A stretch of 64,000 nt of DNA. Source: Stratiformator vulcanicus. GTDB lineage: Bacteria; Planctomycetota; Planctomycetia; Planctomycetales; Planctomycetaceae. The stretch is taken from NCBI RefSeq assembly GCF_007744515.1, contig NZ_CP036268.1, positions 4,458,833-4,522,832 of the forward strand, in the 5' to 3' direction. Of the stretch, positions 18,615 through 23,399 are shown in pieces. Under the pieces are notes generated by a model. That model made no database searches. It had not been told where the DNA came from and saw only the letters and a program-made list of their open reading frames with translations. Each line of letters opens with the position of its first letter. Position 1 is the stretch's first letter. The position numbers and the translations under genes are program-made.

Positions 18615-19193
18615 CCGACCCGGCTGCCTGTCGTGACAACGTCTCGTTTCAGGTTCTCAAAGCGACCACTTGCACTAAAGCAGCATACGCCCGACGATCC
18701 TCAAACCATGCTGCCACATCTCGCACTTTCAGCACCGGTAGCTCAGCAGGATAGAGCGACAATTTCCTAAAGCAGGTGCGGAATCGCCATTCGCCTAAAA
18801 AGAATATAGTTTTCTCCGCGCTCGACCCTCGTGGGCAATCACGCAAAAATCCGGCTTCCCCGCGTTTAGAAATTGTTCCAAGTGTCGCGATGCCAGAGGG
18901 TCACTAACACTGCTGCTTCACCGGAAGCAAATTCAATAACGTGCGTTTCTGATTTGTCGAGACTCGCTTTTCAGGTGGCCCAGTCGAGTTCGGCACTCTT
19001 CGACTGAAACCTGGCGCGGCATTTAAAAAACTCATTCTTTCGGATACTTTTCACGAAACCATTTGGCCGCCGCGGTGTTTCAGGTCTTCCGAGAACATTT
19101 TCGGTTTTCATATTATTCGATCTGCTCAGTCGCCATCGTTATCCCCGCCTTCGTCCTGCCACAACTTGTTTCAGCCCACGCGTAGGATCTGTA
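18615..19193. other. Intergenic left end of the island
   Basis: About 580 bases with no credible gene. It contains the degenerate tRNA-Arg piece at 18732-18771. The part after it looks more AT-rich by eye. A TAGGATCT Shine-Dalgarno-like site precedes the ATG at 19194. Confidence 0.6.
18732..18771 (+). pseudogene. Truncated tRNA-Arg 5' fragment (candidate attL)
   Basis: Forty bases that match the first 40 bases of the intact tRNA-Arg(CCT) at 23326 at 36 positions, from the acceptor 5' strand through the D-arm (GTAGCTCAGCAGGATAGAG) to the anticodon loop (TTTCCTAAA). After that the similarity stops; the 3' half is absent and no acceptor stem can form. It is in the same orientation as the intact gene 4.6 kb away. 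This is what remains when an element inserts into a tRNA gene and brings its own copy of the 5' half. It cannot be a working tRNA. Confidence 0.8.
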
Positions 19194-20567
19194 ATGCATC
19201 AATGGCGGGTCGGAATCGTCGGAGGGGGCCCTGGCGGTCTCATGTCGGCATATGACTTACAGAAGTCAGCGTCAGCTCCATTGGCAATTACCATTTTCGA
19301 AGCGACCGAGCGCTGTGGCGGCAAGATTCTGACCCCGCACTTCAACAATGCCCCCATTCGGTACGAAGCGGGAGCCGCGGAGTTTTATGACTACTCTCAC
19401 TTCGACGAAGATCCGCTTAAAGATCTTATCCTCGAGTTAGGGCTACCCATTTCGCGGATGGGGGGAAGCGCATTCATCTTCGGACACCAGAAGTTTACGA
19501 GTCTCGACGACATTACCGACTACCTAGGCCACGATGTGGCGCAGGCATTCAAAGACTTTGACAACCGTGCCAGAGAGGAAATGACCCCCCAAGAGTTTTA
19601 CCACTCGGACGACCCTGAAGGAGTTACCGGGACGCTGAATTGCGATTTTGACAGCCGGCTGTCAACGATTACACACTCCACCGCACGAAAACTGATTGAA
19701 ATGGTCATTCACAGCGACCTGGCAACTGAGCCGGCCCAAACCACGGCCTGCTATGGCCTGCAGAATTACCTGATGAACGACCCCGCCTACATGCAACTCT
19801 ACGGAATCGTCGGCGGCAACGAACGGCTTCCGCAAGAATTAGCCGCACGAAGCAGCGCCAGCTTTCGCATGAGCTCACCCGTTCGAGAAGTATTAAAGGT
19901 TGATGAATCACTGCGTGTTGTGTCCGAAGTCGACGGACAACCCTGCTACGACGACTTCGACTATGTAATCATTGCGCTGCCCCACAATCAGTTACAAAGC
20001 GTTTCCTTTCAAAGCACGCGACTGTCACAAGCGATTAATACTCACTACAACACATATCATTTCCCAGCTCACTACCTACGCATCAGTGCTCTTTTTGAAA
20101 GACCATTTTGGCGAGAAGAACACAGTGACTCTTTTTGGATGCTGGAAGACTTTGGGGGATGCTGTCTCTACGACGAGTCTTCGCGCGACCCGTCTTGCAC
20201 GCACGGCGTCTTGGGCTGGTTAATCGCCGGCGAGGCTGCCGCGGTCATGAGCGAATTGAGCGACGAAGCTCTCATCGGGAAAGCATTGGAGACTCTAACA
20301 CAGCTAGATTCCCAATCGTGCAGTGGTTTCATTGAAGGGCAGGTCCACCGCTGGTCGGGCGCCGTGAATGCCATACCTGCCGGCAAAACTCCCCAACCAC
20401 ACGATCGTCGCCATCAGCCGGAGCCGATCGAACACCCAAATTTGTTCTTTGTCGGCGACTATTTGTTTGATTCCACCCTGAACGGGGTCTTGGATTCGGC
20501 CCAATACGTCGCGGCTTGGATTACCGGTCAAATTGCTGATCAAGCTTTATCGCAGAACGGCGAGTGA
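19194..20567 (+). CDS. Flavin-containing amine oxidase family oxidoreductase
   Basis: A 457-residue FAD enzyme. The dinucleotide-binding motif GIVGGGPGGLMSAYDL is at residues about 7-22, followed by an Asp/Glu-ended strand (IFEATERCGGKI), the usual second motif of amine oxidases and protoporphyrinogen oxidase-like proteins. The C-terminus has the FAD-closing motif NLFFVGDYLFDSTLNGV. No membrane segment or signal peptide is evident, so it is probably cytoplasmic. The family oxidises amines, amino acids, polyenes or porphyrinogens; the substrate here is unknown. It is the first gene of a three-gene operon inside the tRNA-flanked island and overlaps the next gene by four bases. Its Gly/His/Cys-rich insertion (FWMLEDFGGCCLYDE) is a feature I do not recognise from well-known members. 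Confidence 0.8.
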   Translation: MHQWRVGIVGGGPGGLMSAYDLQKSASAPLAITIFEATERCGGKILTPHFNNAPIRYEAGAAEFYDYSHFDEDPLKDLILELGLPISRMGGSAFIFGHQKFTSLDDITDYLGHDVAQAFKDFDNRAREEMTPQEFYHSDDPEGVTGTLNCDFDSRLSTITHSTARKLIEMVIHSDLATEPAQTTACYGLQNYLMNDPAYMQLYGIVGGNERLPQELAARSSASFRMSSPVREVLKVDESLRVVSEVDGQPCYDDFDYVIIALPHNQLQSVSFQSTRLSQAINTHYNTYHFPAHYLRISALFERPFWREEHSDSFWMLEDFGGCCLYDESSRDPSCTHGVLGWLIAGEAAAVMSELSDEALIGKALETLTQLDSQSCSGFIEGQVHRWSGAVNAIPAGKTPQPHDRRHQPEPIEHPNLFFVGDYLFDSTLNGVLDSAQYVAAWITGQIADQALSQNGE

Positions 20568-21469
20568 AAATGGATGAACGAACAATATCTTCACCGCAGC
20601 AACCCCTTCGGAGTGACTTCCAGTCGGAGGCCTTCCCTGACGCCTCGGTCGAAAGCATTTTGATTGTCAATCAACTAAATGAAAGCGATACGGTAATCCA
20701 TCAATTTGAGCCGCCGCTGCAACTCTGGGCAGTTCGGCAGAATGAAACGCAATCAAATCACTCCAGAGTCGAAGCCGAATTCGACTTTCTATTTCTCCCA
20801 ACCGACGCGACAGATCGCAAACTGGGTTCGACAGATGTCCCCGGTGATGTGGCCACTGAAATGCAACAATGGACGCAGCAATCTTCTGGGTCACACACGC
20901 CAACACCCTACTTTTTTAACTTCCAGGGCACACAAGTCTCTTGGTCAATAGACAGATGCGCCGTCCATGCGCCCATCGATAAGGTTGATACGATACGCCG
21001 CACGATTGCCGAAGTTTCTTACTACGAACTTGAAATGAGACGGATCGAGAGTGAGCTAGGGTCTGAATGGCCCCAGTTGGAAGCCGACATCCCCTTAGCG
21101 TTTGATTTCAACGAAAGCTCACTCGAAACGAAGAACGCATTGCTAAAGCGGTTCCAATTCACATACCTGACTCGAGCAAGGCTGGCCCGCCTTGGCCCCT
21201 TTATCCATTCTCCACATCTCTATCCGCCCACTCTCGCCAGCCAACTTAATGAACGCCTTCGCGATCGAACGCGGATTACTTACCGCCACGAATTTGTGAG
21301 TGATCAGCTGGAAGTTTTTGAGGAGGTTTATGAGTTATGCGGGCAGCGATCCAGTGATTATTCTCAAGCCAGAACCGGCCACATTCTCGAATGGATCATT
21401 ATAATTATCCTGATCGTTCAAGTACTATTTTCGGTCGCCGAAATTCTCGCCGGCGCAAGCAGCACGTAA
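20564..21469 (+). CDS. Unknown protein with RMD1/DUF155-like membrane-anchored C-terminus
   Basis: A 301-residue protein; GTG 20564 overlaps the oxidase stop, and an ATG at 20570 is an equally good start. The N-terminal 100 residues are soluble and unfamiliar. From about residue 110 the pattern resembles the RMD1/YagE (DUF155) family: an FNFQGTQVSWSI strand, a long helical part, then FEEVYELCGQRSSDY and a C-terminal hydrophobic helix, EWIIIIILIVQVLFSVAEIL. In that family the end is a membrane anchor following a coiled helix pair; its molecular function is poorly known, with a mitochondrial yeast member implicated in meiotic division and others linked to translation. The assignment rests on the C-terminal pattern only. 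The stop overlaps the next start (TAATG). Confidence 0.5.
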   Translation: MKMDERTISSPQQPLRSDFQSEAFPDASVESILIVNQLNESDTVIHQFEPPLQLWAVRQNETQSNHSRVEAEFDFLFLPTDATDRKLGSTDVPGDVATEMQQWTQQSSGSHTPTPYFFNFQGTQVSWSIDRCAVHAPIDKVDTIRRTIAEVSYYELEMRRIESELGSEWPQLEADIPLAFDFNESSLETKNALLKRFQFTYLTRARLARLGPFIHSPHLYPPTLASQLNERLRDRTRITYRHEFVSDQLEVFEEVYELCGQRSSDYSQARTGHILEWIIIIILIVQVLFSVAEILAGASST

Positions 21470-23157: not shown

Positions 23158-23187
23158 ATATCTCGGTCCGATATCGGACCGAGATAT
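23158..23187. repeat. 30-bp perfect palindrome
   Basis: A 30-base perfect palindrome, ATATCTCGGTCCGAT followed by its reverse complement with no loop, lying directly before the recombinase remnant and about 140 bases before tRNA-Arg. Its length makes chance occurrence unlikely. It could be a binding site for a dimeric protein or a recombination-related site. Confidence 0.85.
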
Positions 23188-23364
23188 TGGTGGCGGTCGA
23201 AGGCGGTGTCGGCGATTTTACTCTGCGAGTTGATGCGGCACCGGGACATCGCCGCGACGATGCGATACTATGTCGGGCAGAATCAGGTGGAGACTTCCCG
23301 CCTCAAAACACAGCGAGAACAAACTGCACCCGTAGCTCAGCAGGATAGAGCAACGGTTTCCTAA
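23188..23364 (+). pseudogene. Tyrosine recombinase (integrase), C-terminal remnant
   Basis: An open frame of 58 codons entering directly from the palindrome. It reads WWRSKAVSAILLCELMRH, then RDIAATMRYYVGQNQ, the C-terminal box of phage-type integrases: the LMRH(x)nI-x-T-T-M-x-Y-Y pattern with His and the nucleophilic Tyr region. The catalytic domain and N-terminus are missing upstream, where frames are broken. The frame runs on into the tRNA-Arg gene and stops there at 23362-23364, as is usual when an integrase gene abuts the attachment site. This supports site-specific insertion at this tRNA. Confidence 0.65.
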
Positions 23365-23399
23365 ACCGTAGGTCGTGGGTTCGAATCCCGCCGGGTGCG
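23326..23399 (+). tRNA. tRNA-Arg, anticodon CCT
   Basis: A 74-base tRNA. Acceptor GCACCCG pairs with CGGGTGC and the discriminator is G. The D-arm contains GCTCAGCAGGATAGAGC, the anticodon loop TTTCCTAAA gives CCT (decoding AGG), and the T-arm is GTGGGTTCGAATCCCGC. CCA is not encoded. It is the right boundary of the island and a 40-base partial copy lies at 18732-18771. Confidence 0.96.

Follow-up and report, generated by a model that had tools for sequence, protein, structure and literature searches.

How does a bacterium come to carry, some kilobases upstream of an intact tRNA-Arg(CCT) gene, a second and slightly diverged copy of the front half of the same gene? The question is raised by a locus of the planctomycete Stratiformator vulcanicus, whose genome is a single contig of 5.23 Mb (NZ_CP036268.1). 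A stretch of 64,000 nt of this contig was analysed and is referred to here as the window. A first-pass annotation, made from the letters alone, had described the locus as a decayed genomic island. Our analysis makes it very probable that a phage-like or satellite element inserted into the anticodon loop of tRNA-Arg(CCT) by means of a tyrosine recombinase of the LMRH family, supplied a new 5' half of the tRNA along with the DNA upstream of it, and then decayed. LMRH and WAKK, a second recombinase family that enters the argument below, are labels coined in this analysis.

The course of events can be pictured as follows. A phage or satellite would have been inserted by site-specific recombination, and the block 18732-23365 would be what is left of it. 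Its attachment site would have carried a 5' tRNA half, immediately behind the C-terminus of the LMRH-type recombinase that the element itself encoded. Through strand exchange the host 5' half would have ended up at the left, and the 5' half of the element would have been joined to the host 3' half at the right, so that the rebuilt tRNA would be functional while its upstream DNA would now be element-derived. Most of the genes of the element would have been lost afterwards, with a three-gene operon and an insertion-sequence-like scrap remaining inside. The right end was probably retained because the tRNA is single-copy and any promoter would now lie in former element DNA, a dependence that is expected on logic. 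The sequence itself shows the two tRNA copies and where they part, the remnant and the way it points, and the like layout of intact elements and viral attachment sites; the recombination event, the descent of the remnant from the inserted element and the promoter role of the element end are inferred. The parts of the block are these:

18732 to 18771, + strand: probable displaced host 5' half of tRNA-Arg(CCT), the left junction; 40 nt, 90% identical to tRNA positions 2-41
18772 to 19193: probable non-coding left end of the element; 50.2% GC
19194 to 20567, + strand: FAD amine-oxidase-like gene (PF01593, E 2.3e-31)
20570 to 21469, + strand: gene without a clear family; one sub-threshold Pfam hit; adjoins the oxidase in relatives
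21469 to 22560, + strand: membrane acyltransferase gene (PF07786 / PF01757, E 5.4e-19)
22770 to 22983: degenerate repeat with a possible transposase scrap; 72% copy at C1:1199157, piece at C1:452977
23158 to 23187: perfect 30-bp palindrome directly before the recombinase remnant, single in the window
23191 to 23361, + strand: C-terminal remnant of a tyrosine recombinase of the LMRH family; its frame runs on into the tRNA, with the stop in the anticodon loop
23325 to 23365, + strand: 5' half of the intact tRNA, probably element-supplied, as judged by comparison with the displaced copy and the viral attachment site
23325 to 23400, + strand: intact tRNA-Arg(CCT), the right junction (ARAGORN)

Both edges stand as they had been drawn before. 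When about 0.6 Mb of fetched own-genome DNA was searched by BLAST, the tRNA matched the left copy on the same strand with four mismatches (E 7.6e-10), and self-comparison of the window returns the same pair at a spacing of 4594 bp. Of the 46 tRNA genes that ARAGORN called at the fetched places, no other is a CCT gene. The upstream fragment runs in the direction of this gene, reaches its 5' end, and ends in the crossover region, the anticodon loop, where identity stops 3 nt past the anticodon. An integrase gene is absent from the inside of the block. Only a C-terminal frame of about 57 residues is left, tRNA codons counted in, and the block is accordingly filed as a remnant and not as a working element.

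The layout is found in intact form elsewhere in the same genome. When the block was searched against its own genome, a perfect 39-nt 5' half of tRNA-Arg(TCG) was found 10,521 bp before the intact gene. A Phage_integrase gene adjoins the intact tRNA, and primase-like and terminase-like genes lie between the two copies; this intact-looking element of 10.5 kb occupies L024:5778-16337 (G000:C1:4396777-4407336). None of the INPHARED phages matched its integrase. A local search of the 0.6 Mb gave another case, a perfect 44-nt 5' half of tRNA-Met and, 42.2 kb further on, the intact gene and an integrase alongside it (a 42-kb element at G000:C1:4968376-5010684; L088, L076). Islands of the usual 3' kind are present in the fetched DNA as well, at tRNA-Lys(CTT) with 30 nt and at tRNA-Val(TAC) with 20 nt. 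The 5' kind makes up three of these five fragment-bounded islands, the window being one of the three and the one that prompted the search. Judged by the position of recombinase genes alone, the bias is less one-sided: two lie on the 5' side of a tRNA (Arg-TCG, Met) and seven on the 3' side (Ser-GGA, Ser-CGA, Leu-CAG, Lys-CTT, Asn-GTT, Val-TAC and a Ser-like gene at 2469916).

The two 5'-side integrases are homologous (36% identity) and lead to the WAKK clade. With a profile built from them (A1), matches at E<=1e-30 are obtained in 117 of 397 class genomes, own included. Among 30 A1 loci that were fetched, one per genome and own included, 26 have a tRNA, and in 26/26 the tRNA turns its 5' end towards the N-terminal end of the integrase. 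When named genomes were scanned with a profile of 17 sequences (A2), 227 relatives were obtained, the best of which were kept as 79 loci. In these best 79, a tRNA lies within 600 bp in 64, with the same facing in 64/64; 18 tRNA kinds are represented, tRNA-SeC among them. Over the A1 and A2 sets, which overlap and are not additive, the tRNA is 68-505 bp away from the integrase. By their titles, 76 of the 79 loci are from planctomycetes; three come from metagenome bins, of which one bears the label Nitrospira and two Nealsonbacteria. A displaced 5' half was found at 11 of the 19 WAKK sites searched in relatives, each time on the predicted side and strand, and within flanks of <=10 kb at 4 of 64 further loci; the site count leaves out G108, which runs into a contig end, and G110, in which no tRNA was found. 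In G216, two displaced 5' halves of one tRNA-Thr(CGT) stand in tandem (L244, L245) and probably reflect tandem 5'-half insertions.

The displaced halves end in the same place. In 19/19 of those compared, the window included, identity ends between +2 (the 3' edge of the anticodon loop) and +7 nt past the third anticodon base, and this common breakpoint rules out a chance match or a tandem tRNA duplicate. Another origin considered for the left copy is truncation of a duplicated tRNA, or a pseudogene, without any insertion and with ordinary host DNA in between. The block holds no intact recombinase, the operon occurs elsewhere without nearby tRNAs, and the cargo departs only moderately in codon usage, all of which would suit such an origin. 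It is nevertheless scarcely credible: the left copy stops where the displaced halves of 18 other elements stop, it lies on the right side in the right orientation with a recombinase remnant at the other edge, and the GC content of the block is shifted.

Composition had been proposed earlier as a check on the island, and it gave a divided answer. The GC content of 19194-22560 is indeed low, at 51.8% against 58.3 +/- 2.7% in 187 same-size own-genome windows from 11 fetched stretches, 1.6% of which are as low. Codon usage departs less clearly, with z of 1.1 and 2.6 for the two of three cargo genes that are scorable; these two are more atypical than 40 and 42 of the 43 other open reading frames of the window. 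GC skew was tabulated as well, and no inference is drawn from it. The displaced half of the window is the most diverged of the 19, with four mismatches as against 0 or 1 in the other 18, which fits an old insertion event. Together with the reduced recombinase, this bears out the word "decayed" in the first-pass annotation.

Which recombinase, then, made the insertion? The remnant frame at about 23191-23361 reads ...LMRHRDIAATMRYYVGQNQ... and runs directly into the tRNA, with its stop codon in the anticodon loop. By itself it has no Pfam hit. A query of 50 residues from it gave 75 matches in 59 of the 397 class genomes, own included in both counts, many of them in open frames of about 400 residues, so the earlier reading of a recombinase C-terminus near the intact tRNA holds. 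Both the Arg-I and the HxxR boxes are canonical in 13/13 aligned LMRH integrases of the same class; the window has lost the portion of the gene that would encode them. The remnant of the window belongs to LMRH and not to WAKK.

Several observations weigh against an insertion by such an element. Besides the window there are 74 genomic LMRH matches, of which 50 are convergent, facing the 3' end of a tRNA, one is codirectional, and 23 have no tRNA in the flanks read. The codirectional relative, G054, is itself an open frame of 52 residues, and no displaced half was found in its 27.7-kb contig. Among the 19 WAKK sites, eight show no displaced half in the roughly 17-60 kb searched (G252, where a 19-nt hit at E 0.024 was not counted, G166, G109, G051, two more in G216, one more in G195, and G441). 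No empty site was seen, and no homologue of the neighbouring GNAT gene turned up at E<=1e-15 in 169 other family genomes. Nor does any gene flanking the tRNA of the window recur at 29 tRNA-Arg loci of relatives (23 with the CCT gene; flanks <=1.5 kb). The operon has 17 loci in relatives, none with a tRNA inside the fetched flanks (<=1.5 kb). Lastly, a sigma-70-like promoter upstream of the rebuilt tRNAs shows no enrichment over plain shuffles in the 64 WAKK loci (z 0.13), and among the own-genome elements scored, a good sigma-70 match (TTGACA) is found only at tRNA-Met.

The matter of orientation is met by viral sequences. Of 69 LMRH-like viral loci fetched, 60 were examined, nine distant ones (L458-L466) being left out, and in 40/60 a tRNA or a half of one lies just past the integrase. 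These 40 comprise 12 with a reversed 3' half, 11 with a whole convergent tRNA, seven with a codirectional 3' half, six with a codirectional 5' half and four with a reversed 5' half; near-copies are included in the count (L406-L408; L420 and L425; L429 and L439; L446 and L449). The six with a codirectional 5' half have the geometry of the window, where likewise the LMRH C-terminal motif is followed directly by a codirectional tRNA 5' half. Measured from the half, their stop codons lie at -23 to +33 bp; one of the six has its stop codon inside the half, as does the window. One of the six halves is that of a tRNA-Thr(CGT), and its best match is the tRNA of the G054 remnant. The idea that the LMRH remnant is a foreign scrap, which drew on the convergent orientation of 50 of the 51 tRNA-adjacent genomic relatives, is lowered by these viral sites.

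A further polarity of the attachment site is seen at L406-L408, L412, L420, L425 and L440, where LMRH-like viral integrases are followed by a codirectional 3' tRNA half. When polarity is mapped on a quick tree of 50 integrases, 9 changes are required, as compared with 13.5 under label shuffling, although few branches are strongly supported. The tree took in 34 of the 40 viral loci (without L407, L408, L439, L449, L453 and L455) and 17 genomic ones, and L414, having no open reading frame, was dropped. As far as such a tree can tell, the polarity of LMRH attachment sites seems to have switched more than once.

The same viral sites lower the standing of an account that was favoured at first, namely that a WAKK recombinase made the insertion and its gene was lost, while the LMRH remnant came later with another element. 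WAKK integrases do occur at tRNA-Arg(CCT), which is the neighbour in 9 of the 64 tRNA-bearing loci (L288, for example), and a WAKK viral contig, L386, carries a tRNA-Arg(CCT) 5' half that differs from the intact gene of the window at 1 position in 40 and has no 3' half alongside. Altogether, five of 24 viral WAKK-like loci have a 5' half without a 3' half, the appearance expected of a free attachment site; seven have a whole tRNA in the usual arrangement, three are distant or ambiguous, and nine have none or too little room. Of the three, L396 and L397 (32% and 27% identity) have a stretch resembling the 3' part of a tRNA; L379 is the ambiguous one. Upstream of the L379 integrase lies a tRNA-like sequence that ARAGORN did not call, and CTA, which would be a suppressor anticodon, is a possible reading of its loop.

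What speaks against WAKK as the agent is the right edge of the window itself. In WAKK elements a spacer separates the tRNA from the N-terminal end of the integrase facing it; at that place, immediately before the tRNA, the window carries the C-terminus of an LMRH recombinase. The left end of the block also lacks a palindrome, for example GGGTGTACGTACACCC, that 12/18 WAKK elements carry about 101-125 bp in from their own left end and that is perhaps an arm-type binding site. Since LMRH viruses of exactly the window geometry exist, the WAKK account is now judged improbable. Insertion by an LMRH element remains the preferred explanation, and the two central claims of the first-pass annotation, that the element supplied the new 5' half and that the left copy is the original half of the host, are supported by the same-genome elements, their relatives and the viral attachment sites.

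The three-gene operon needs separate consideration. Homologues of its oxidase are present at E<=1e-40 in 17 of the 169 other family genomes and, with the genus of the window counted, in 7 of 58 genera. The order of oxidase, second gene and acyltransferase is the same in 15 of the 17 relatives, and the remaining two loci are cut short. This operon (L357-L373 along with window 19194-22560) is thus conserved in order and patchy in its distribution within the family. The annotation had named the occurrence of the three genes at other places without tRNA-Arg as evidence against an island. In part this is what was found, as the genes stand together in relatives with no tRNA within <=1.5 kb; it shows that the operon has a life of its own and is not proof against an insertion here.

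The operon is therefore an independent unit of patchy occurrence, which may have been cargo of the element or have arrived later. That the element was real and the operon entered the scar separately, by a later insertion or recombination, is quite possible, though we would stop short of calling it probable, and it is compatible with the insertion by an LMRH element. The conserved order, the 17 loci without a flanking tRNA and the insertion-sequence-like repeat that adjoins the operon all agree with such an entry. On the other side, the operon lies wholly between the junctions, and the whole block is low in GC. The repeat itself (22770-22934) is degenerate, and its 80% piece at C1:452977 matches 22788-22837. 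The peptide at 22864-22980, which had been taken for a transposase scrap, has no Pfam hit, so the repeat stands and its identity as a transposase is weakly supported.

Some features of the WAKK clade go beyond the locus. The 17/17 members of A2 have glycine in the column of the catalytic Arg-I and tyrosine in that of the HxxR histidine. The Gly/Tyr replacements, along with an R-x-K-T motif, are seen in 77/77 once the scan-selected sequences are added (L209-L237, L257-L335), the tyrosine count being biased by the search pattern and the filter. A profile alignment to XerA places the same two replacements in WAKK. Without its Arg-I, the clade is a natural test of how tyrosine recombinases replace the catalytic arginine. 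Outside these families, a tRNA at L014:1494-1568 (G000:C1:4119668) is called Leu(TAG) and has a short variable arm unlike that of the other Leu tRNAs of the genome.

The 5'-half layout is that of every tRNA-adjacent genomic locus read of a clade that matches more than a quarter of the class genomes. After an insertion of this kind the region upstream of the tRNA belongs to the element and not to the host, which bears on the tRNA preference of islands and on the persistence of their ends. A wider proposition, on which we are evenly divided, is that planctomycete elements have repeatedly turned to the front halves of tRNAs, with the WAKK clade devoted to them across at least 18 tRNA kinds and the LMRH polarity switched several times. 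Each insertion would put a host tRNA under element DNA, head-to-head with the integrase in the case of WAKK, so that control of the tRNA could pass to the element, or the end of the element could become indispensable. In the window such an indispensable end would survive as a fossil.

How does this compare with known systems? The comparison draws on PMC4383910, PMC8371274, PMC9897764, PMC8138268, PMC10865867 and PMC5495485. Integration at tRNA 5' halves is already known and is described as rare: PMC8371274 calls it "seldomly encountered in bacteria", and among 3919 islands in the Islander collection, 159 have a 5' tDNA fragment as against 3760 with a 3' fragment (PMC4383910). The literature searches turned up no report of a planctomycete clade devoted to 5' halves. 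The 5'-fragment islands of Islander resemble the window in having a rebuilt tRNA at one end and a displaced 5' fragment at the other, in the same orientation. Islander, however, requires an integrase gene inside, and the window, with only a remnant, would be rejected by this filter.

A close likeness is offered by the pTN3 and TKV4 integrases of the Thermococcales, for which PMC8371274 and PMC5495485 give attB as a tRNA 5' half (41 bp shared) and the rebuilt tRNA as cut from its original promoter. These systems are archaeal, whereas the window is bacterial. Integration of pTN3 also disrupts its own integrase gene, while both intact elements of the S. vulcanicus genome keep an integrase open frame beside the tRNA. 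As for catalysis, PMC8138268 describes in the IntCTnDOT subgroup an alternative location for the catalytic arginine, as may hold for WAKK; the remnant of the window, by contrast, belongs to LMRH, whose members keep canonical boxes. In the tRNA-dependent lysogeny of actinobacteriophages (PMC10865867), the phage brings a whole tRNA gene and the tRNA is not rebuilt at the junction, yet the outcome is alike in that an essential tRNA is made dependent on phage DNA.

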